IMG/VR virus record: IMGVR_UViG_3300037345_000079
Coordinates: 1 to 27,384 of that record
Strand: one strand, 5' to 3'
Origin: a virus
Length of the DNA: 27,384 bases
The translations under genes were made by a program, and so were the position numbers. The notes below the pieces were generated by a model, which had not been told where the DNA came from, made no database searches, and saw only the letters and a list, made by a program, of their open reading frames with translations. Positions 12,144 through 23,939 of the stretch are shown piece after piece. Within the stretch, counting starts at the first letter, position 1. Each line of letters begins with the position of its first letter.

Positions 12144-12829
12144 TCCCGTGGTCTACCCAGTTTACCTACGAAAAGATCAAGAGGATTGACGCGCCTTCTG
12201 GCCGTGTTTATGTCCTGCCCAGCGGCAAATCGGTCCCTTCTGTGACGGCTATTTTGGGGCTTACAAAAGACAAAAAGGGCCTTGAGCAGTGGGCCGAGCG
12301 AGTCGGTCAAGCGGAGGCAGAAAGGCAAAAGAACGAAGCAGCCTACGTCGGCACAAACATGCACGAGACCTTAGAGTGCATCCTGGACGGTGAGCCGTTG
12401 TCCGTGGGCCGTGACTGGTTGGCCATGAAGGGCCATCACATGGCTTTTGCCTTGGCTAACCGCTACTTCGGTGCAATCTCCGAGATCCACGGCTCGGAGG
12501 TGCATCTGCACTTTGGGGGGCGCTACGCGGGCACGACCGACTTGGTAGCCACGTACCGTGGCAAGCTGGCCATTGTGGACTTTAAACAGTCCGTTCGGCC
12601 CAAGCGCTACGAGTACATCACCGACTACTTTCATCAGCTCGCAGCGTATGCCGTGGCCCACGATGAGATGTATGGCACCGAGATTGACTTCGGTGCGGTG
12701 CTGGTTGCGGTGCAGGACGGGACGACGCAGGAGTTCACCATCACGGGCCGAGAGTGGCAAAACTTCAAGGCCCAGTGGATGGAGCGGCTTACTGCGGCGG
12801 AGGCTGCTGTGCTCCCATCATCGGACTGA
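12131..12829 (+). CDS. PD-(D/E)XK exonuclease (RecB/Cas4-like)
   Basis: 232-aa nuclease. Motifs: VGTNMHETLECIL with His78 (helical motif I), Glu123 (SEVHLHF), YAGTTDLVA with Asp137, LAIVDFKQS with Asp150/Lys152, and the QLAAYAVA helix with Gln169/Tyr173. These are the complete catalytic set of RecB-, Cas4- and lambda-exonuclease-like PD-(D/E)XK enzymes. I see no Cys cluster like the iron-sulfur site of true Cas4, so it is a Cas4-like phage exonuclease rather than Cas4. It follows the SNF2 helicase with a 13-nt overlap. Its last 41 nt overlap, tail to tail, the end of the late operon on the other strand. Confidence 0.9.
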   Translation: MAHLIPWSTQFTYEKIKRIDAPSGRVYVLPSGKSVPSVTAILGLTKDKKGLEQWAERVGQAEAERQKNEAAYVGTNMHETLECILDGEPLSVGRDWLAMKGHHMAFALANRYFGAISEIHGSEVHLHFGGRYAGTTDLVATYRGKLAIVDFKQSVRPKRYEYITDYFHQLAAYAVAHDEMYGTEIDFGAVLVAVQDGTTQEFTITGREWQNFKAQWMERLTAAEAAVLPSSD

Positions 12830-15800
12830 CGCTGTCAAACGGAAACAGCGCTTGGTATTGGTCCCGAGCGTTGGCGTTGGTCGGAGGCCCAGACGATGCA
12901 GCGCCTTGCCCCGCAGGAGGAGGCTTGTTAAGGCCCGGCACGCCCCGTGTGCTTGGGGCTGCAGGCATTTGGCGCAGCTGACGGGCCGCTTGCCCCTGTG
13001 AGGTGAACGGAGACGTTTGAGCCGGTTTTTTCTCTTCTGCGTCAAGGTAGTTTAGAGCGGGGGTGACCGCGCTCTTGCCGACTGAGACACCCAAAGATCC
13101 CAAGTAGTTGATCAACCCGTTGGCAATGTTGCGCTGCTCTTTCTCGGTGCGACCTTTTTGCAGCAGCAGGGCCATGGCTTCAGGGTCTTTGACTGCTTTT
13201 TCCAAAACGGTACGCACAGTGGCGTTGGGCAGGGCGTCAAAAACTTGCCGGACCGCTCTAGAGCCTGCAGAAGCAGCAATCAAGGCCCCCGGACCGGATG
13301 GCGCGGCCGCCGAGCCGATACTTGAGCCGAGAATACGCAGACCCAGTTCAGTAACCGCATCAGCCCCTTGAATTACATCCTCTACAGGGAGGTTGTTTTT
13401 GAGTGCCGTTTCAATTCGGGCCATGGGCGTTAAGAGCTTCTTGTAGTTTGAAAGCTCTTGCAAAGTCATCATGCCGTTGCTGCGCATGATGTTGGCAATG
13501 GAGGGCTGGTTGCGTGAAATTGGATCGAACAGCGCGGCGGTGTATGCGTCGACGCTGAACCTGCTGCTGGGTGTATTGCCACCCGCCTTTGTGTAGGCGT
13601 AGTCGAACAGGGAGGACTTGAACCCCTCCACAGCGTCAGGGCCGCCTTTCTTGGCCAAATCGGTCAAAGCACGAATGTCCCTGACGGGAAAGCGCCCGCC
13701 CAAGCTGTCCGCAATCACTTTGGTAGGGCTCTCCGCCGTCAGCAACTTGGCAAATGCGAGCTGGTTGTTAGCGGTCTTAGCCAGCGCGCTGGTTTCCTTG
13801 GTCACCTGGGTGAGCAAGTTAGCTGCGTGAGCCGCGTCGCGCAGGTCGCCCATGATGCCCATTCTCTCCAGCAACGGGGCATTTTGCTGCGCAAACTTTG
13901 TCAGCTTGGGGTAGTTGAGCTTTTGGACATAGTTCCCCGTGGCCTCATCACGGACCGTGGTCACCGCATCTGCCGCCGCCAACCGCAGAATCCGATTGTG
14001 GGCGTCACGCACAGAGGCCACGTTGCCTGTTGCGGCAACGGCAAGAGGCTTGAGCTCCAAGGCCCGAGGGCTGTCTTTGCCAAATTTAGCAACGGCATCG
14101 CGATATTGTGTGCGAAGAAACCCCACGGAGTCCTCGATCTCCTTCATGCGCATTGCGGTCTGGTCCGCGCTGCCGCCAAAGGCACTTTGAACAAGTGTCT
14201 CTATTGGGACCCGTTCCCTGCCGGTACCCGTCACCCCTGTGACTGAGCTGGCATAGGTCCGTGTAAAGGTGTCGTTCAAGGCGCGGGAAAACTCCCGCGC
14301 TTGATCGTACATAGGGTCCTTGAGTGTGTCCAAGTCCCGCATCATGCCGTCGGCTAAGTTGCTGTAAAAGTCCGCATTGCTACGATCGCCTTTTCCTGCC
14401 GCATCCCGGCCCATTTTCAGCAAGGTGGAGCGATAGCTCACCAGGTCTTGTATGGGCTGCTCCGTGATCCGTGGGGCAAAACCTGGGGGCACTTGCCCTG
14501 TCTGAAGAAACTGGTCGGTTACTTTACCTCTGCGAAACTGATCCACAGCCGCTTCGTCCACGCCAAACGACTTCATGATCTTACGAACCTGTGGGGGAAT
14601 GTCGTCAAAAAGCGCAGGCCCCATTTCAGAGGCTCTTTGGAGAAAGGAGTCTGCGGTCGCTGTGGGTGTCAGGGTGGGGGCTTTTAGCACCGCTTGGTTG
14701 CCCACCACGGGCCTAGTCATGTTCCGCAGGGTCTCGGTCCACAGCTGGGACTCCACGTCACGCGCTTGCAACAACGCCTGCTCCGTCTCGCTTTTGACAA
14801 TCCCGCCAATCTGCTGGCGAGCGCCAGGCGTGTCTGGGGTGATCTTAGCGATCTTGCGCGCAGCGTTGGCATCAGCCATTGAAAGCCGAGTCTCCAAACC
14901 GTTGGCAAAACGGTCGTAGCGCAGCTTGCTTGCCGCGACAAGGCCCTCGGGGCCGGTCTTGCCTATTGCCTCAACAAGTTCTTGATATGCAGCCAAGGCC
15001 TCCCTTCCTTGAGCCGCTGTCTCTCCGCCAAACTGAGAGCGATGGGTACTGAGTGACGCCTCCAGATCCATGAGAGCCTTGTTGCCCGTCTTTTGCCCGG
15101 ACGTGGGAAACACATCCGGCGGCAGCTGCTGGCGTAAAGCTGCAATCAATTTCTTTGGGTCTTCGCCAGACTTTTCCAAAACATTCAAGAGGATGTTGGC
15201 AGCGCGCTTTTCCTGAGACGCGGGACCTCCTGCAAAGGAGGAATTAATGGCCCTAACAGTTGCTTTGCTGGCGTCGACTGCCGTCGTAAAGACCTTCGTC
15301 ACGGGGGTCAGGCCTGCGGCAAACTCAGCCCCAAACCGTACGCCTGCTTGCCCAGGGAAATAGGTCTCGGAAGTGCCCCCAGCTACGCCTTGCGCACCTG
15401 CGCTAACAGCTTCTGCCCCCAAGAACACCTTGGGGTTGCGGCGAGCCGTCTCTCCCATGGTCGACAAAAACTGAGATACGCGCCCTGCCGTAGGGCCAGC
15501 GGCGGGCAAAAAGAACGCAGCAGGGGCGGTGGCAATGGCCGAACCAAAGGTCGTGCCGCCCTCAAAGTAAGGCTTGAGGCGCGGATCGGCCTCTTCGGGA
15601 ACTACGCTGGAAGCGCCCTGCCCTGCCTCGTAACCAAGGTAGCCGCCCAAGGCGGTTGTGACCAATGGGATGGCTCCTGCGAGCGGCCCAATAAAGGGGG
15701 TGGCAGCGGCGGCCATAGGCATGCCAAGCCTAAACCCCGTCAAGGCACCGCCCACGACAGGGGAGTCACGAAGCGCTCCTTTTACGGCCCCCTTGCCGAT

Positions 15801-16022
15801 GGAAGCGGCCATGTCCCCAGCGTCGGGAGCCGGTGGTCCGCCAGAAGGATAGAGATCGTCAATCGTTTGTTCCTTGGGAGACGCTGCTGTGGGCCCATCT
15901 CCGCGAGCTACTCTCGGGTAAAAAGAGGGACGGCTTGCCGCTTCAATTTCCGCTGCAGTAAGGGGTGCCTCAGGCTTTTGGCCAGAAGGGAACAAGTCGT
16001 CAATGGTTGAAGCGGTTGCCAT
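12789..16022 (-). CDS. giant internal virion / DNA-ejection-like protein
   Basis: 1077-aa protein starting MATASTIDDLFPSGQ, with AAGAGGTAACTAG upstream and the upstream stop inside that leader. The N-terminus has two copies of a short motif, TIDDLFPSG (6-14) and TIDDLYPSG (53-61). Residues 88-180 contain Gly/Ala-rich hydrophobic stretches able to insert in membranes (GMPMAAAATPFIGPLAGAIP, AIATAPAAFFLPAAGP). Then comes a long helical body, and a Pro/Gln-rich tail ending DQYQALFPFDSVSPMM. Size, hydrophobic N-terminal region, helical body and position after the tail genes resemble internal or ejection proteins of podoviruses (roles like T7 gp14-16). No lysozyme or RNA polymerase motif was found. 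Last gene of the late operon. Confidence 0.6.
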   Translation of the reverse strand: MATASTIDDLFPSGQKPEAPLTAAEIEAASRPSFYPRVARGDGPTAASPKEQTIDDLYPSGGPPAPDAGDMAASIGKGAVKGALRDSPVVGGALTGFRLGMPMAAAATPFIGPLAGAIPLVTTALGGYLGYEAGQGASSVVPEEADPRLKPYFEGGTTFGSAIATAPAAFFLPAAGPTAGRVSQFLSTMGETARRNPKVFLGAEAVSAGAQGVAGGTSETYFPGQAGVRFGAEFAAGLTPVTKVFTTAVDASKATVRAINSSFAGGPASQEKRAANILLNVLEKSGEDPKKLIAALRQQLPPDVFPTSGQKTGNKALMDLEASLSTHRSQFGGETAAQGREALAAYQELVEAIGKTGPEGLVAASKLRYDRFANGLETRLSMADANAARKIAKITPDTPGARQQIGGIVKSETEQALLQARDVESQLWTETLRNMTRPVVGNQAVLKAPTLTPTATADSFLQRASEMGPALFDDIPPQVRKIMKSFGVDEAAVDQFRRGKVTDQFLQTGQVPPGFAPRITEQPIQDLVSYRSTLLKMGRDAAGKGDRSNADFYSNLADGMMRDLDTLKDPMYDQAREFSRALNDTFTRTYASSVTGVTGTGRERVPIETLVQSAFGGSADQTAMRMKEIEDSVGFLRTQYRDAVAKFGKDSPRALELKPLAVAATGNVASVRDAHNRILRLAAADAVTTVRDEATGNYVQKLNYPKLTKFAQQNAPLLERMGIMGDLRDAAHAANLLTQVTKETSALAKTANNQLAFAKLLTAESPTKVIADSLGGRFPVRDIRALTDLAKKGGPDAVEGFKSSLFDYAYTKAGGNTPSSRFSVDAYTAALFDPISRNQPSIANIMRSNGMMTLQELSNYKKLLTPMARIETALKNNLPVEDVIQGADAVTELGLRILGSSIGSAAAPSGPGALIAASAGSRAVRQVFDALPNATVRTVLEKAVKDPEAMALLLQKGRTEKEQRNIANGLINYLGSLGVSVGKSAVTPALNYLDAEEKKPAQTSPFTSQGQAARQLRQMPAAPSTRGVPGLNKPPPAGQGAASSGPPTNANARDQYQALFPFDSVSPMMGAQQPPPQ

Positions 16023-16026
16023 CTAG

Positions 16027-18060
16027 TTACCTCTTTGGACCGTCATACTTTATTTGCACTTGCTTAAACCCAGTTTGCGGGTTGATCACAATGTACTCGC
16101 CGGGGGGCAAGGTCTTCCACACGGACGGATCAATGATTGTGCGCTGTTGAATGCCCAATAGGTCTCGCACCGCGCTGATTTCTTCGAGTTTTTTGGTTGC
16201 GTCCTTGCGAGCCTGAACCCCGGTTCTTTCCTGAGATTGAATGTTAAAGGTTTTATTCTCAATCCCTTCAATCACGTTGTCCAAAGCAATGATCTTGTTG
16301 ATGTAGCCGTTCTTGTTGGAAAACACCGCTGGAGCCAGTTTAAGCTCCTTCAAAATCTGCTGTCGTTCTGCATCAGCAAAGCGAGGGTTCTCCTGCAAGG
16401 TGTTGACAACTCGGTTGGTCATGCTGTCCAGCATTGCAGTGCTCTGCTGAAACTCAGGCCCAATGCTGCCCGCTACATCCAAAGGCACGTTGCGTGCAAT
16501 CCCCGACACCAGCACGGGCACAAAGCCTGTTCCGGTCGCAGCCAAATCAAAGAAACTGGACTTTGGCGCAGTGCTGGCTATTTGGAATATCTCCGGCTCA
16601 GCCGCAGCCGAAGTCAAGCCACTAGGCACAACAGGGCGCGTTGGGGTAGATCCGCCCACAGGAGTCGTGTTGCTCGGAGGAGCAGTACCGCTTACCGGCA
16701 CTTTTTGTCCCAAGGCATCCTTTACAAAATCCGGCAGTTGGTTTCGCTGGGTACGGATTGACTTGAGCCCTGTTTCAGGGTCAGTAAATTCAATCGCCGT
16801 AGGTTGCGTGTAATCCGTGACTGCGGTCATAAAGGTGTTGCTCTGCTCAGGCGTCAAGGAACCTGCTGCGTACAACGGAGCGAATTGAATAAGGCTGTTC
16901 AAAATGTCGCCTTTGTTGCCACTGCCAAGAGGCCCTTTGTCCGTGGCCCCTGCCTTTTTAGCATCGACCCGAGACTGAGCGGCGAGCACTTGGTTAATCA
17001 AAGCGCCCTTGCGCTTTTGCAATTCAGCGTTGCTGGCGGTGACCTGATCAATATCCTTCTCACCCTGTTGCAGTGCCAACACTTTGAGCTGGCGATCGAT
17101 CTTGGAGATCTCGTCAATACGCTTGCCCATGGCGGCAGGCAATGTACGGGTCGCTCCTGCAAGGCGCGACATAAAGCTGCCGCGCAAAGGGCGGCCCGCG
17201 TCGTCCACGTTTCCTGCAAAGGCAAAGGCCCGTTGTCCGAGTTCCAGCAGCATCTGCGCCTCGGATGCACCCCTGTCTTGGCCCAAAAGGGTTTGGTACT
17301 CCGGCAAGCGAGAGGCCGTGGCCTGTGACAAGGAAGGCGCGGTAGCAGGCTGCTGATTAAATAGATCCATTGATGACTTTCTGGCAGCAGCCACCATGTC
17401 AGCAGGAAACATCATCAAATCTTCAGGAACGGCAGTGTCTCCAACAGGGGTCACACCGTTCTCATCAGACCCTGCTTGAAAATTTTGGACATAGCCTCCC
17501 CGTGCCATCGCAATCGGAGGCTGGCCGGGGGGCATGCCCGGTGGCATTCCTGGGGGCATGCCCGGAGGTGCGCCACTCGGAGGACCGCCGCCCATACCAG
17601 CCATCAACTCGGCAATGCCGCCTTGCGCTGGTGGCGGAGGCATACCCGCATCCGGAGGCATCGGGGGCATGCCCGGAGGAGGCATTCCCGGGTCGCCGCC
17701 CATCATCGGGGGCTGAGGCCCTTGGGCCATTTCCGCAGAGGCAGGCAACGCGCCAATGCCGCCCCCGCCTTGTTGTGACAAGACAGTTTGCAGCATGGCC
17801 AGCACGGTCTCTGGCGTCTCAGTGGCGGCTTGGTAGCCCACCAGATCAGCCAGTTCATCGCGCCGTGCGTCGATGGAGCGCATGTCACCGCGCAGATTGT
17901 TCATCAGTATTTCAGGAGAGTCCGGGCGACGCTCCATCATCGACTCAGGGCTATCCTCGCCTTCATCGCCCACGTCTTCCCCGTCATCCATGGAATCCAT
18001 GAAACCCTGCATGATGCCGCTGTTCTCAACGTCATCTTCCACCATCATTTTGTTTTTCAT
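16027..18060 (-). CDS. large virion protein with Pro-Met-Gly-rich region
   Basis: 677-aa protein starting MKNKMMVEDDVENSG, with AAGAGG five bases upstream. Residues 17-50 are acidic. Residues 115-183 are a Pro/Met/Gly repeat built on GMPP units (GAPPGMPPGMPPGMPPGQPP), followed at 185-198 by MARGGYVQNFQAGS, a short motif I have seen in phage structural proteins. Residues 290-370 are charged helices likely to form a coiled coil. The C-terminal half mixes low-complexity linkers and helices. It is immediately downstream of the 854-aa protein gene (9-nt gap) and is probably a virion component. The exact role is not identifiable. Confidence 0.55.
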   Translation of the reverse strand: MKNKMMVEDDVENSGIMQGFMDSMDDGEDVGDEGEDSPESMMERRPDSPEILMNNLRGDMRSIDARRDELADLVGYQAATETPETVLAMLQTVLSQQGGGGIGALPASAEMAQGPQPPMMGGDPGMPPPGMPPMPPDAGMPPPPAQGGIAELMAGMGGGPPSGAPPGMPPGMPPGMPPGQPPIAMARGGYVQNFQAGSDENGVTPVGDTAVPEDLMMFPADMVAAARKSSMDLFNQQPATAPSLSQATASRLPEYQTLLGQDRGASEAQMLLELGQRAFAFAGNVDDAGRPLRGSFMSRLAGATRTLPAAMGKRIDEISKIDRQLKVLALQQGEKDIDQVTASNAELQKRKGALINQVLAAQSRVDAKKAGATDKGPLGSGNKGDILNSLIQFAPLYAAGSLTPEQSNTFMTAVTDYTQPTAIEFTDPETGLKSIRTQRNQLPDFVKDALGQKVPVSGTAPPSNTTPVGGSTPTRPVVPSGLTSAAAEPEIFQIASTAPKSSFFDLAATGTGFVPVLVSGIARNVPLDVAGSIGPEFQQSTAMLDSMTNRVVNTLQENPRFADAERQQILKELKLAPAVFSNKNGYINKIIALDNVIEGIENKTFNIQSQERTGVQARKDATKKLEEISAVRDLLGIQQRTIIDPSVWKTLPPGEYIVINPQTGFKQVQIKYDGPKR

Positions 18061-18069
18061 AGTGACCTC

Positions 18070-20634
18070 TTAGAAAAGACCGGCTTTTTTGGCCCCGGCG
18101 GCGGTGGATGCAACCCCAAGGCCGATGCCAACAGCTTGTTGGAACGGGCTGGCCGTCGGCTGGCTGGCCACCTGCGTGGACATTTGCGTAGACGGAGCGC
18201 CCTTGTAGATGTCGGACAAGAACCCGGCCTGCTGGTAGGGCGCATAGACCTGCTGCAGTTCCGTGGCGCGTTGTGCGTCCAAAGCCTGCTGGTTGAACGC
18301 TTGCTGCGCTTGGCCCGTGTTGTACAAGAAGTTGATGTCGCCTTGCTGTAGCGCCTGAGCGGTTTGGCCCAATGCGCCTTGCTGCACGCCAAGTTGCCCG
18401 AGCTGACCGGCCATCTGACCAAGGCCCTGCGCTTGCTGTTGGCCAATGCCGAACTGCTGCGTGGCCAACTGCCCGATGCCTTGGCCAAGGCCCTGCATCT
18501 GCTGCGCTTGTTGGCCGTAAATGCCAGCGGCAGTCTGCGCGGTTTGGTTGCGCGCTTGAGACTGCTGCATCAGCAAGTTGGAAATGTTTTGGTTGATCGA
18601 AGCCTCTTGGCCTGCCAATGCACCGCCCTGAGACGCCAAGTTGCCGTACTGTTGCGCGGCTTGGCTGTAGATGCCAGCGGCACCCTGTCCAAGTTGTGCC
18701 TGCTGCACCCCAAGCTGACCCAAGCCTTGGCCAGCGGCCACTTGGTTTTGAGCCAAATTGCCGTAGAGGCCCGCTGCAGATTGGCCCAGTTGAGCCTGCT
18801 GCGCGGCTTGCGAGCCGACCTGCTGCCCGATGTTGGCCAGTTGCGATGCTCCAGCTTGACCCAATTGAGCGCCCTGCGCTGCAAAGTTACCCAGTTGTGA
18901 GCCTGCCTGGACGCCGAGTCCCGCTTGTTGGGCGGCCAACTGCGCGGCGTTTTGTTGAAGGCCCGCTTGCTGCGCTGAAGCGCTAATCTGACCTTGGCCC
19001 GCTGCCATAAACTGCTGAGCGGCGTTCTGCCCAAGACCAGCTTGCTGCGCTGCAAGACTACCTAGTTGTGAGCCTGCTTGGAGACCGAGGCCTGCTTGTT
19101 GGGCGGCCAACTGAGCGGCGTTTTGTTGAAGGCCCGCTTGCTGCGCTGAAGCGCCAATCTGACCTTGGCCCGCTGCCATAAACTGCTGAGCGGCGTTCTG
19201 CCCAAAGCCTGCTTGCTGCGCTGCGACCTGCGCCTGCTGCGCGCCTAATTGCCCAATGCCTTGGCCCACCTGCATCTGGCGCTGCTGTTGCTGCTCAAAG
19301 GAGGACATGGCTTGGGCTTGGGCTTGGCTGTAGCCTTGAGACAGTAAGTTGGCAATGGTGGAGGACTTTTGATCCAGCAAGTTGCGCTGCATCTCAGCGC
19401 GCTGAACACCCTCTCGCTCACCGCCAAACGCCCCCGATCGGACTGCTTGTGCTGCCGCGCCTTGGCCCGCGATCAGGCTTTGGCGGTCCATCTGCCTCAT
19501 CGTCTCGTCGATGACTTGCTGGCGGTAAGGGTCCATGAAGGACTGAGCCGAAGCGGGGTCATAGCCCTGCTGCGCCCCGCCTAAGGTCCCAATGCCTTGG
19601 CCAAGCGCTTGCTCGGCCGCGCCGAACCCCGGCTGGTTGGCGGCTGCCGCCGAGGCCATCGCGCCACCATACAGGGCATCGACCCCTTGCCGCATGCCGG
19701 GAGCCTGTGCCGCTTGTGCTGCCATTCCGACAGCCTGTTGGCCTTGACCAAGTCCTTGCCCAATGGCTTGCTGCGCCGCGCCGAATCCCGGCTGGTCGAC
19801 TGCTGCCGCCGAGGCCATCGCGCCACCATACAGGGCATCGACCCCTTGCCGCATGCCGGGAGCCTGCGCCGCCTGTGCGGCCATTCCAACGGCCTGTTGG
19901 CCTTGACCAAGTCCTTGCCCAATGGCCTGCTGCGCCGCGCCAAAGTTAGGTTGTGCACTTTGGAGTTGACCGGCCGCCTGCCCCATAAGAGCCTGAGAGC
20001 CCCTGAAGTCAGCGCCTCCCGAGCCAAGTGCCAGCTGCTGCGCTTGCGTCAAACCGCCAATGCCCTGGGCAATGGCTGAAGTTGCGGGCTGCAAGTTGGC
20101 TTGGCTGGACATTGCCGCCATGTTTTGGGCCGTGGCCAGCGAGCCGAGGCCCGTGCCTATGTCTTGGCGAGCTGCGCCAAACTGGCCGGTGGTGTCGGAT
20201 GCTACTGCGCGCTGCGCGGCGGCATCCAAGTAGCCGAGGCCCTGGTTTAACTGGCCTATGCCCGAAGTGATGTTGCCAGCGGCCTGCCCTGCTTGGCCCA
20301 TGGCCTGTTGGGCGTCCGTGAACTGGTTGCGCGTGTCCGCTCCGCGCAATACATCGGCTGCCTCGCCGGTGGTCCGATATGCCGTGCCTAACGCTTGGTT
20401 GGCCGCCGTCATGTAGGGTGTAAAAGACCCCACCCCCATGTCGGAGGTGGCCTGCATGGCTTGGCGCTGTGGGTCGGTAAACCCGGCAACTTGGTAGCCC
20501 GGCAGCTGTTGGGCGAGGGTTTGACCACCACCCGTGTTAAACGCGAGTTTCTGCGCTTCTTCAAGCAGCTTTAACTTGTACGCTTCGATCTCCGGGGCTT
20601 CCCGGACTATCTGCTGTGTGGTTTCGGTTGCCAT
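18070..20634 (-). CDS. Gln/Ala/Gly-repeat virion protein
   Basis: 854-aa protein starting MATETTQQIVREAPEIEAYK, with AAAGGTAAATAA upstream. No Cys, Trp or His was found on reading. A conserved island at 365-440 (SFMDPYRQQVIDETMRQMDR, GAFGGEREGVQRAEMQRN) is one I recognise from structural proteins of many aquatic phages. Flanking it is a very long Gln/Ala/Gly-rich array with variants of AAQQAGLGQ. Two exact-register internal duplications are present, 53 aa (228-280 and 281-333) and 57 aa (471-527 and 528-584). The C-terminus ends in an Ala/Gly helix (GIGLGVASTAAGAKK). The composition suggests a long helical or coiled protein ejected with, or lining, the tail channel. Function inferred. Confidence 0.6.
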   Translation of the reverse strand: MATETTQQIVREAPEIEAYKLKLLEEAQKLAFNTGGGQTLAQQLPGYQVAGFTDPQRQAMQATSDMGVGSFTPYMTAANQALGTAYRTTGEAADVLRGADTRNQFTDAQQAMGQAGQAAGNITSGIGQLNQGLGYLDAAAQRAVASDTTGQFGAARQDIGTGLGSLATAQNMAAMSSQANLQPATSAIAQGIGGLTQAQQLALGSGGADFRGSQALMGQAAGQLQSAQPNFGAAQQAIGQGLGQGQQAVGMAAQAAQAPGMRQGVDALYGGAMASAAAVDQPGFGAAQQAIGQGLGQGQQAVGMAAQAAQAPGMRQGVDALYGGAMASAAAANQPGFGAAEQALGQGIGTLGGAQQGYDPASAQSFMDPYRQQVIDETMRQMDRQSLIAGQGAAAQAVRSGAFGGEREGVQRAEMQRNLLDQKSSTIANLLSQGYSQAQAQAMSSFEQQQQRQMQVGQGIGQLGAQQAQVAAQQAGFGQNAAQQFMAAGQGQIGASAQQAGLQQNAAQLAAQQAGLGLQAGSQLGSLAAQQAGLGQNAAQQFMAAGQGQISASAQQAGLQQNAAQLAAQQAGLGVQAGSQLGNFAAQGAQLGQAGASQLANIGQQVGSQAAQQAQLGQSAAGLYGNLAQNQVAAGQGLGQLGVQQAQLGQGAAGIYSQAAQQYGNLASQGGALAGQEASINQNISNLLMQQSQARNQTAQTAAGIYGQQAQQMQGLGQGIGQLATQQFGIGQQQAQGLGQMAGQLGQLGVQQGALGQTAQALQQGDINFLYNTGQAQQAFNQQALDAQRATELQQVYAPYQQAGFLSDIYKGAPSTQMSTQVASQPTASPFQQAVGIGLGVASTAAGAKKAGLF
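18883..19224 (-). repeat. tandem duplication, 171-bp unit, in the 854-aa gene
   Basis: Two adjacent copies (19054-19224 and 18883-19053) encode 57-residue units beginning AAQQAGFGQN and AAQQAGLGQN. They differ at only a few residues (F/L, G/S, L/V, SL/NF) and are also very similar at the DNA level, so the duplication looks recent. Confidence 0.85.
19636..19953 (-). repeat. tandem duplication, 159-bp unit, in the 854-aa gene
   Basis: Two adjacent copies (19795-19953 and 19636-19794) encode 53-residue units beginning QPNFGAAQQAIGQGLG and QPGFGAAQQAIGQGLG. They differ at only three residues, and a partial third copy (QPGFGAAEQALGQGIG) follows. The central DNA around the words VDALYGGAMASAAA is identical in both copies. 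Confidence 0.9.
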
Positions 20635-22782
20635 TTATTTACCTTTCACCGGCCCGCCTTCGAGCATTTTCATGAGCTTGTACATACGCGCTGCGCCTTT
20701 ACGGCGGCTGCCTTTCCCGGCGTTGCGCACGGCCTTTGCTGTAAACACAAACTCGCCGTCCGACAGCATGGCAGGGATGTCATCCGAGGTTCCCGTGCCG
20801 GGTCCGTTGATTGGACCGTTCTTGCGGGGGAACTCTCGCATCGACATCTCGCCGCCTTTGGCGCGTCCAACAGGGTAGATCGTCGGGACCCCGTACAGGC
20901 CTGCGACGTTGTAGGGCTGTGCGACACCCCCTGGGGACATTGTCGCCCCCATGGGTAGTGCTTGCCCCGGCTGGCCCATAAGAGTAGCCCGAGAAAAGTC
21001 TGTTTGAACCACAGGGCTTCGAGGTGTTGCAGGTGTCCTATAGCCAAAGTCTAAGCCGCCTCTGAACTGATCAGGGTTGTCCCTGAGGTAGTCAGTGCCG
21101 GTGTAGGCTCGGTCAAACGCTGGATTTTCCTCAGCAGGCGAGCCTTCCATGCCGCCCGCCGCTGCCGCCGCTGCGGTTCCTGCCAAGGCCAACGGGGCGT
21201 ATTTCCGAAGAAGACCCGCGTCTGCGGGTAGACCCGGGCGACTGGGGGACAAGTACTCGTTGTACACGTCCTTGGCCCCTGTTGCCATCTTGTCAAAAAA
21301 GCCTTGAGTCGGTGGCGTTACAGTACTGGCCATGCCGTAGTTGGCTCCACCGGAAGCGTTGGTCAGAGGAGAAACGCCAGGCTGGAGCCCTGCTGAAGAA
21401 GTACCCATCCGTAAGCCCATGCCCGGTGAACCGCCCATGCCCGGTGCACCGTACGTCCCTGCAGCAGCAGGGGAAGCGCCTCCCAAGCTGTAATCGCCGG
21501 AGAAACTGCCTGCAGCAGCAGGGGAAGCGCCACCCAAGCTGTAATCGCCGGTGAAATTGCCTTGAGCATCGAATCCGGAGCTTTGGCCCATGGCGGGCAT
21601 TTTAAAGCCGCCGCCCGGGCCTTGGCTGGCCAACAGACTTTGCGCATCCCCGATCGGACCCGGTGCCCCTGTCTCGGCTTGCGCCATTTGGGCGCTTGCA
21701 TCGCCCTGCGCGGGAGCGCCTTGCGAGTTTTGAATTCCTTGCATCGCCGCCGCCGATGCACCAGAGGTCACGCCCATCCGCAAAGCGTCCTCCGTGCTCA
21801 TGCCGGATACCTTGCCGATGCCCGCACCGATTAAACCTGTAGACAGGCCCGTGTTCAGCGCACTGCCTGCCGCGCCGGGGAGATACCCGCCAACAGCCGA
21901 GACAGGGCTTACACCCATGATTGTGCCGCCGCTGCCAACGTAGCCCATGGCACCTGCAATAAGGGCGTCCTTGAGGGAGCCTCCGCTTGCAAGGGTCACG
22001 CCTGCACTTGCCGCCCCTGCCGCAGTACTTAAAGAAAGGCCCACGCCCGCAGGCCCGAGGACCGTGGCCAACGCAATGGTTGCAAGAATACGTCCAACAG
22101 GACTTTTCCGGATCTTTTGAATAACATTGACCGCGCTTTTAAAAATCTTTTTAACGCCCCCCCACAGCTTCTTAAGGAAAAACTCTGGTAAGCCTGTTTC
22201 AGGGTTAATGGTGCCCGAGCCGCCACGGCGCTTGAGCAGCGCGGCCTCTTCTGGGGTGATGTGCGCCAGCATGGTGTCGCCGTTGCGGCCCCTTGAGGCA
22301 AGGTAGCTAGCCACATCTGCCAAGCCGCCTTCAGCCATGCCCATTGGGGGAAGACCCTCTATGGTGGGAGACATCTGCATGGGCTCCATGGCCCCTTCGC
22401 CCTGCATTATCTGCATTTCGTTAAGGACGGACAAAATCGCGCCCAAGAACTCAGGGTCGTATTGCTCTGGCAGGTCTTCCGGGTCAATATAGTCGTTGTC
22501 AATCAACTGCTGTCGAGTGGCGGGGTAGCCTCTCGGGTCTTGCGACAGCATCTCCACCGCAGTGATAAGCATTTCAAGCTCTTGCGGCGACATTTGCTCG
22601 TCAGCTAGGTTCTCGCGAATGCTTGCCCGCAGCATCTCTTGACCGGCAGGATTGACCATCCCAAGCGCCGTTTGCGCGGCGTCGTATGACTGCGCGCTGG
22701 TCACGCTGGGTTGTTGATTTTGGGCTTCTTCGCCCTGCATAGCTGCACCCTGTGGGAGCGCCATGATTCCTTCATCCACCAT
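20635..22782 (-). CDS. large virion protein with hydrophobic region and TSDDIPAMLSDGEF motif
   Basis: 715-aa protein starting MVDEGIMALPQGAAMQ. This ATG follows GGAAAGG; a TTG five codons upstream lies inside that site and is rejected. Residues 1-130 are acidic and helical. Residues 229-265 form a Gly/Ala hydrophobic region (RILATIALATVLGPAGVGLS) and further Gly-rich stretches follow to about 350. Residues 412-445 contain two copies of a 17-aa repeat (GDYSLGGASPAAAGSFS). The C-terminus has GPGTGTSDDIPAMLSDGEF then AKAVRNAGKGSRRKGAARM, a motif known from tape-measure-like and other phage structural proteins. First of four giant late proteins, it follows its own likely promoter. Confidence 0.6.
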   Translation of the reverse strand: MVDEGIMALPQGAAMQGEEAQNQQPSVTSAQSYDAAQTALGMVNPAGQEMLRASIRENLADEQMSPQELEMLITAVEMLSQDPRGYPATRQQLIDNDYIDPEDLPEQYDPEFLGAILSVLNEMQIMQGEGAMEPMQMSPTIEGLPPMGMAEGGLADVASYLASRGRNGDTMLAHITPEEAALLKRRGGSGTINPETGLPEFFLKKLWGGVKKIFKSAVNVIQKIRKSPVGRILATIALATVLGPAGVGLSLSTAAGAASAGVTLASGGSLKDALIAGAMGYVGSGGTIMGVSPVSAVGGYLPGAAGSALNTGLSTGLIGAGIGKVSGMSTEDALRMGVTSGASAAAMQGIQNSQGAPAQGDASAQMAQAETGAPGPIGDAQSLLASQGPGGGFKMPAMGQSSGFDAQGNFTGDYSLGGASPAAAGSFSGDYSLGGASPAAAGTYGAPGMGGSPGMGLRMGTSSAGLQPGVSPLTNASGGANYGMASTVTPPTQGFFDKMATGAKDVYNEYLSPSRPGLPADAGLLRKYAPLALAGTAAAAAAGGMEGSPAEENPAFDRAYTGTDYLRDNPDQFRGGLDFGYRTPATPRSPVVQTDFSRATLMGQPGQALPMGATMSPGGVAQPYNVAGLYGVPTIYPVGRAKGGEMSMREFPRKNGPINGPGTGTSDDIPAMLSDGEFVFTAKAVRNAGKGSRRKGAARMYKLMKMLEGGPVKGK
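21448..21549 (-). repeat. 51-bp tandem repeat (17-aa unit) in the 715-aa gene
   Basis: Two adjacent units encode GDYSLGGASPAAAGSFS and GDYSLGGASPAAAGTYG. The words around GCAGCAGGGGAAGCGCC are repeated nearly base for base on the plus strand. Confidence 0.8.
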
Positions 22783-22856
22783 GATAGCCCTTTCCAATTG
22801 TTGCCAGTAGCCCTAAAGCGGGCTGCGCGCCGGGAAAGGACGCGATGATGGCTGAA

Positions 22857-23225: not shown

Positions 23226-23939
23226 TCACACTGCCGATACAAAGTTAACGGTCAAGATGACCGAGGGGATTTCAGGCCTTGTCGGCGTGCTCTCGGCCGC
23301 GTAGTGCTCAATGTACACATCCGTGCTGCTGGCCCACCATGCGATTTCCAAGTAATCGGTGCTTGGCTCGTTGACCGTGAAGATGCCTGTAATGGTAGGG
23401 ACGACGTGTGAATAAATGGAGACGCTCTTGCGCGTCGGCACATCAAAGCGCGTGCGGCTTGACGGGTAGTTGACCCCGGCAGCCTTGGCCCAAACCTCAA
23501 ACTCCTGTATCGCGTTGCTGCGATTGGAGACCTGCAAGCTGAAGGTGACCAAATACTGCCCGCTGCAGGGTAGGTAGATCTTGCTGTTGTCGACCACCCG
23601 AACACCATTGGAAAGGGCCACAACGTCGTAGGTCAGCAGCTCCTCTGTGGTGATGCTGGTCAGCTCTTGATCCACGTTGGATACCAGCATGGCGTTAGGC
23701 AAAAGGATGCCGTTGCTGTTCTGAAAGCCCCGGATGCCGCCAGAAAAACCTCCGCCTGCGCCCGAGTTTGCCGACATCCAGGCGCTCGCAGCGGCAATGT
23801 CATCGCTGACAACGGGCGTGTAGGTATTGTTAAGCTGAAAAACAATTTGCTCAAGCGAACGCACAAGCTGATTAAACTGGGAAGGGTCATACCCCGACGG
23901 CGAGGCGTTAGGCAGGCGGACATTGTTGATCTTGCTCAT
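23226..23939 (-). CDS. tail fibre-like protein with C1q/TNF-like domain
   Basis: 237-aa protein starting MSKINNVRLPNASPSGYDPS. Residues 17-45 (QFNQLVRSLEQIVFQLNN) form a short helix suited to trimerisation, followed by a Gly-rich hinge (NSGAGGGFSGGIRG, 59-71). Residues 95-237 are beta-strands in the order seen in C1q/TNF-like jelly rolls: KIYLPCSGQYLVTFSLQV, EFEVWAKAAGV, SVSIYSHVVPTITGIFTV, DYLEIAWWASSTDVYIEHY and a final PSVILTVNFVSA strand. Such domains form receptor-binding or capsid-decorating trimers. Located between the tail stabilization protein and a small beta protein. Fold assignment is by pattern. Confidence 0.6.
   Translation of the reverse strand: MSKINNVRLPNASPSGYDPSQFNQLVRSLEQIVFQLNNTYTPVVSDDIAAASAWMSANSGAGGGFSGGIRGFQNSNGILLPNAMLVSNVDQELTSITTEELLTYDVVALSNGVRVVDNSKIYLPCSGQYLVTFSLQVSNRSNAIQEFEVWAKAAGVNYPSSRTRFDVPTRKSVSIYSHVVPTITGIFTVNEPSTDYLEIAWWASSTDVYIEHYAAESTPTRPEIPSVILTVNFVSAV

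Follow-up and report, generated by a model that had tools for sequence, protein, structure and literature searches.

Sequence features of the locus

The window, by which we mean the whole 27,384-nucleotide stretch of viral DNA analysed here, is a genome fragment without capsid genes. On its minus strand, an open reading frame with an ATG start codon (18070..20634) encodes an 854-amino-acid (aa) protein that, from its reading frame, its relatives and the match of relatives of 260–405 aa to phrog_4287, is predicted to be a Gln/Ala/Gly-rich hairpin protein and the first protein of an ejection-protein operon. It shares operon and strand with proteins of 720, 677 and 1,077 aa. Residue counts (181 Gln, 175 Ala and 133 Gly, with no Cys, Trp or His) bear out the composition given in a preliminary description of this DNA.

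Relatives were collected from IMG/VR in five protein scans, four of them queried with family members and the fifth with the 294-aa protein of phage DSL-LC04, giving 143 distinct full-length sequences of 260–1,405 aa. Their 93,616 residues include no Cys and a total of six Trp or His. Three domains are constant across the relatives, an N-terminal domain of ~80 aa, an island of ~90 aa with a GAFGGxR motif and a C-terminal domain of ~90 aa, and the variable parts are the two arms between them, which measure 2 and 19 aa in the smallest forms. The claim that the protein grows by in-frame unit duplication and differs strongly in length among relatives thus holds, and it looks as though evolution has stretched the protein from ~260 to ~1,400 aa with its fold unbroken. 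Host assignment from the genome contigs was not trusted, its four matches lying in metagenome bins that belong to unrelated phyla.

In the window protein, the conserved N-terminal domain (residues 1–80; 20395..20634, minus strand, as for all features below) and the island (residues 359–445; 19300..19560) are HMM anchors in the relatives; the island carries the motif GAFGGxREGVQRAE, is common to the 294-aa DSL-LC04 protein and is the predicted hairpin tip. Arm 1 (residues 81–358; 19561..20394) consists of putative helical segments interrupted at Pro-Gly, with prolines at residues 183, 229, 259, 282, 312 and 335, and co-varies in length with arm 2. Arm 2 (residues 446–767; 18334..19299) is free of proline, has a polar-residue period of 3.56 and is predicted to be one continuous helix. 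The conserved C-terminal domain (residues 768–854; 18073..18333) is 61% identical to its DSL-LC04 counterpart over 109 aa and ends in a hydrophobic Gly/Ala tail; the last 45 aa hold the most hydrophobic stretch in 90% of relatives. The older repeat background and the non-repeat island at ~359–445, both reported before, are real.

Two in-frame duplications in the window protein

Tandem Repeats Finder recovered both of the in-frame tandem duplications noted previously, with period 159 at 19595–19941 and period 171 at 18874–19224, in each case with 92% matches and no indels. The 53-aa duplication lies in arm 1 (copy 1, residues ~231–283, 19786..19944; copy 2, residues ~284–336, 19627..19785) and the 57-aa duplication in arm 2 (copy 1, residues ~470–526, 19057..19227; copy 2, residues ~527–583, 18886..19056). 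The 53-aa copies differ by nine synonymous and two nonsynonymous changes (pS 0.22, pN 0.017) and the 57-aa copies by ten and five (pS 0.24, pN 0.039), which indicates that the two duplications are of similar age and have been under purifying selection.

An assembly artefact was considered as their source and rejected as very unlikely, because the copies have diverged mostly synonymously (at ~22–24% of synonymous sites) and because an independent contig, L002, which shares 12.3 kb with the window at 99.35% identity (68 mismatches), encodes an identical protein including both duplications. The nearest shorter relative (L008, 745 aa) differs in length from the window protein by the 53- and 57-aa duplications plus one residue and by nothing else. 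Both duplications are private to the window phage, and relatives of equal length lack them; six other relatives examined come within one residue of the window arm lengths through inserts that bear no sequence relationship to the duplications. The 53- and 57-aa duplications would represent one matched pair, with one member in each arm.

Paired length change of the two arms

Both arms changed in the same direction in 48 of 49 disjoint close pairs (core identity ≥70%, change ≥7 aa). In the short clade A, arm 1/arm 2 lengths are 2/19, 9/26, 16/33, 27/44 and 38/55, a series with steps of 7, 7, 11 and 11 aa in each arm, and one member has 11/26. Clade B runs from 59/80 to 497/521 (slope 1.001, r = 0.9999, residual 1.9 aa) and clade C, which contains the window, from 133/162 to 483/522 (slope 1.055). 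Independent contrasts, computed on a constant-domain tree, gave r = 0.98 for all 140 sequences and, for the window group, r = 0.9996 without four outliers and 0.988 with them.

The 26 pairs with >85% core identity contain 37 indels in arm 1 and 33 in arm 2, against a single one in the constant domains. Several pairs differ by one indel per arm: L043 and L044, which are 97.4% identical (+46/+50), L138 and L137 (+54/+54), L137 and L133 (+51/+51), and L015 and L008 (23 and 25 aa). One clear exception to paired change was found in the close relatives L033 and L046 (+11 in arm 1, 0 in arm 2), and L072/L074, in which arm 1 is longer, does not fit the rule. We found no description of paired arm growth in the open-access literature text.

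These counts bear on neutral length drift, in which low-complexity repeats would slip and length would have no function. Gln/Ala/Gly-rich repeats do expand readily, and close relatives differ greatly in total length; yet slippage would be expected to strike one arm at a time, and the change of both arms in nearly all close pairs is therefore evidence against drift, as are the purifying selection on the duplicated copies and the helical phase of arm lengths described below. We consider drift quite improbable, while it is possible that absolute length is neutral and that selection acts on arm equality only.

Helical phase and antiparallel register

In clade C, arm 2 lengths fit a 3.565-residue period (R = 0.964, reached by none of 2,000 random sets), and in clade B one of 3.615 (R = 0.83, P = 0.001). 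The arm 2 sequences themselves, by Fourier analysis, have the same periods, 3.56–3.57 in clade C and 3.61 in clade B. Arm 2 lengthens in whole helical turns, of 3.56 or 3.61 residues. Arm 1 shows a helical period clearly in clade B only, and no length phase was found in arm 2 of clade D. There is no proline in arm 2 of clades C and B (17,467 and 5,859 residues, respectively). Folded at its period, the clade C arm 2 presents three faces, one of Gln/Asn that lacks large hydrophobics, one of large hydrophobics and one of Ala/Gly, a pattern that resembles close helix packing. The helical period and residue faces of arm 2 correspond to a regular alpha-helix and not to a beta-type or silk repeat, and the suggestion of an antifreeze- or silk-like protein was rejected on these grounds.

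The relative direction of the arms can be read from modules that occur together. The arm 1 motif AGPSDF and the arm 2 motif AGFDAQTAMQ are found together in 32 sequences, alone in four and five, and absent in 99, and their distances to the base correlate at r = 0.976 in antiparallel register versus 0.34 in parallel register (kinship ignored in both analyses). Indels in close pairs are likewise nested: L031 and L050 differ by 21/25 aa at the base and 75/82 aa at the tip, and the same order is seen in L177/L179, L055/L003 and L067/L022. The indels of L152/L124, also a multi-indel pair, depart from this nesting, which may reflect alignment ambiguity. AlphaFold2 runs on the 551-aa and 854-aa forms gave nearly all helix but no usable model (pLDDT 42, pTM 0.2), and a search of solved structures with the family profile returned only a designed helical repeat (E = 0.86). 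From the paired arm lengths, the helical phase and the register, the protein is very probably an antiparallel helical hairpin.

Apparent matching of physical length and the departure of clade D

The arms exchange residues at 1:1 in clades A and B and at ~23:25 in clade C, whose arm 1 is interrupted at Pro-Gly. In clade D, which departs from the near-1:1 rule (slope 1.43, residual 34 aa), the exchange is ~1:2 in some close pairs: the two-indel pair L206 and L184 differs by +33/+66, and L028 and L054 by 96 for 198. The matched quantity seems to be physical length and not residue count. If arm 2 is helical (0.15 nm per residue), then the clade D arm 1 inserts, which contain proline, have a rise of 0.30 nm per residue, the value of an extended chain.

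Post hoc, the proline count in arm 1 was correlated with arm 2 excess (r = 0.90; 19 sequences, kinship ignored), while the first Pro-rich-region pattern for clade D, also post hoc, gave only a moderate correlation (r = 0.59). That an extended, Pro-rich arm 1 explains the departure of clade D is a post hoc idea. Members of this clade (L113/L177, L028, L054, L184 and others) have a variant island (SADAFMSPYMQSVVQAQ-like) that is linked to Pro-rich modules of 32–37 aa in arm 1 and 66–77 aa in arm 2, and island and modules together may constitute a distinct stalk architecture.

Probable relationship to phage ejection proteins

The family phrog_4287, annotated as 'DNA ejection protein', was matched by 11 of 14 short relatives (best E value, 8.5e-11). 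The 294-aa DSL-LC04 protein (P0001) aligns over residues 10–288 to positions 16–314 of the 392 in the profile, and gp81 of the cultured pelagiphage HTVC023P also matches (2.3e-10). The window protein had no match in PHROG at E = 0.01, nor in Pfam, and Pfam and NCBIfam searches gave nothing useful; its N-terminal, island and C-terminal domains are 48–61% identical to those of P0001, and the ejection label would reach it through its short relatives.

Gene order points the same way. DSL-LC04, a 61.5-kb genome assembled from a lake metagenome, is syntenic with the window and has genes for proteins of 759, 294, 645 and 1,068 aa in that order, preceded by a stabilisation protein. The window operon resembles the P22 order gp14-gp7-gp20-gp16, and also the T7 ejection operon; the run of 854, 677 and 1,077 aa follows gp7-gp20-gp16 and DSL-LC04 in position only. 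By synteny, the upstream 716–720-aa virion-type protein (20635..22785) is the putative positional counterpart of P22 gp14, the 677-aa protein (16027..18060) that of P22 gp20 and T7 gp15 and the 1,077-aa protein (12789..16022) that of P22 gp16, the last being 41% identical over 92% to a DSL-LC04 homologue annotated as 'DNA transfer protein'. The same family occurs in phage CV-1-33, two genes ahead of an SLT internal virion protein. At the profile level no match was found to P22 gp7, gp20 or gp16, and hhalign against gp7 gave a probability of 0.1%, with a single-sequence target of low power. Synteny and the PHROG match of the short relatives together suggest that the 854-aa protein is probably an ejection protein.

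Other repeats and length classes were seen in this part of the window. The 720-aa gene contains a 51-bp tandem repeat at 21458–21562 (2.1 copies, 94%, FSGDYSLGGASPAAAG-like units) and the 677-aa protein a collagen-like GMPPGMPPGMPP run arising from a 12-bp tandem repeat at 17524–17565. Homologues of a 237-aa virion-type protein (23226–23939) fall into two size classes, ~235 and ~470 aa, unrelated to stalk length.

Capsid, portal and neighbouring genes

The lineage is short-tailed, as indicated by the gene set of DSL-LC04 and by its relationship to pelagiphage HTVC023P, since phages of the HTVC023P type belong to the Podoviridae (PMC9599517). While arm 2 runs from 208 to 447 aa, the major capsid protein remains 90–93% identical and portal frames stay at ~780 aa, apart from one of 847 with an internal stop. 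These portals were found with the DSL-LC04 portal as query, a search of the relatives with the P22_portal family having found none. Arm length showed no convincing correlation with the lengths of neighbouring genes.

A tail-length ruler, or tape measure, had been put forward in the preliminary description. The protein is indeed predicted to be alpha-helical, is length-variable and lies in an internal virion gene cluster, and its 716–720-aa upstream neighbour has a short C-terminal motif common to tape-measure PHROGs. However, the relatives are podoviruses, capsid and portal are nearly equal in long- and short-stalk phages, and a ruler does not need two arms of equal length; moreover, the tested virion proteins of DSL-LC04 show portal, capsid, phrog_3287 and fibre-type families, and no tail-tube gene was recognised among them. 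We regard a ruler as highly improbable. What stands of the original interpretation is growth by units and variable length; the ruler, antifreeze and silk analogies are unsupported, and the rule that emerges is that the arms are matched.

The same lengths bear on whether the arms are matched to each other. They could instead be unpaired within the chain, each being matched to a third object, be it DNA, a partner protein or an adjacent subunit: co-variation fits intra- and intermolecular matching alike, and the 677-aa partner is weakly correlated in length with arm 2 (Pearson 0.52, Spearman 0.19). But the lengths of partner, portal and capsid are nearly constant, and specific module pairs co-occur in antiparallel register, which makes matching to a third object improbable. 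A hairpin domain-swapped between neighbouring subunits is possible.

A model for stalk growth

The explanation that we favour, and consider fairly likely as a whole, is that the protein acts in podovirus ejection, as a pilot protein, and folds into an antiparallel alpha-helical hairpin with paired growth. The N- and C-terminal domains would jointly form the base and the island the tip, with arms 1 and 2 running up and down as a single stalk, ~48 nm long in the window protein on the assumption of a straight arm 2 helix. The stalk would grow or shrink when an in-frame duplication or deletion in one arm is paired with one in the other, so that both arms stay equal in physical length and arm 2 retains a whole number of helical turns. 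Several such hairpins might then line the passage that carries DNA across the envelope, or extend it, their Gln/Asn faces turned toward DNA or solvent. T7 gp14 and the phiX174 H-tube are the models for this helical-conduit function, which is put forward only tentatively; the one feature seen that might bear on membrane or pore activity is the hydrophobic Gly/Ala tail. A further and rather doubtful extension is that hairpins ejected before the DNA form a collapsible tail, a Gln/Asn-lined alpha-helical tube of ~3–100 nm that is set by module number and tuned to the host envelope; it is a guess that stalk lengths differ because phages adapt to host envelopes.

The hairpin could alternatively serve inside the head, as a core or scaffold rod surrounding the portal, and not as an ejected conduit, much as the T7 ejection proteins build an internal core before ejection (PMC8954989). 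Straight stalks of 78–104 nm (522 and 692 aa at 0.15 nm per residue) are, however, unlikely to fit the head of a ~61-kb phage, and the longest forms at least would have to bend or unfold there. This is an argument from size and not a test, and on it we judge an internal core unlikely.

The ejection hairpin, if correct, would be an unusually clean experiment of nature in protein mechanics: lengths alone reveal the fold of the stalk, its register and even its rise per residue, since evolution alters the two arms jointly. Stalk length is also the main difference between close relatives whose capsids are almost identical, and the family therefore offers a handle on how podovirus ejection proteins span envelopes of differing thickness.

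Comparison with known systems

Tail tape-measure proteins are helical and repeat-containing, with length set by unit number. The window family differs in that its phages are short-tailed, its arms must match and it shows no link to tail length. The coiled-coil arms of SMC and Rad50 share with the window protein the order base, arm, tip, arm, base, and SMC arm lengths obey periodic constraints (PMC5344682). The window protein has no ATPase or hinge domain and no homology to them, and we saw no description of paired duplications with differing residue ratios for SMC or Rad50 arms.

The phiX174 pilot protein H, which forms the H-tube, is alpha-helical and delivers DNA, as the window family is predicted to do, and its lumen is lined mainly by Asn, Gln and Arg (PMC7354561), which may be compared with the hydrophobic-free Gln/Asn face of arm 2. 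In contrast, H is a decameric tube of 17 nm with no reported modular growth and no known sequence relation to the window family. T7 gp14, which forms a helical channel after ejection (PMC8954989), and P22 gp7 are, like the window protein, Gln/Ala/Gly-rich and encoded first in a three-gene ejection operon; P22 gp7 has no detectable sequence match to the family, and any membership of the gp7/gp14 family would be by position. Whereas those proteins change little in size, with gp14-like proteins elsewhere spanning 181–240 aa (PMC8954989), the window family extends from 260 to 1,405 aa through paired arms.
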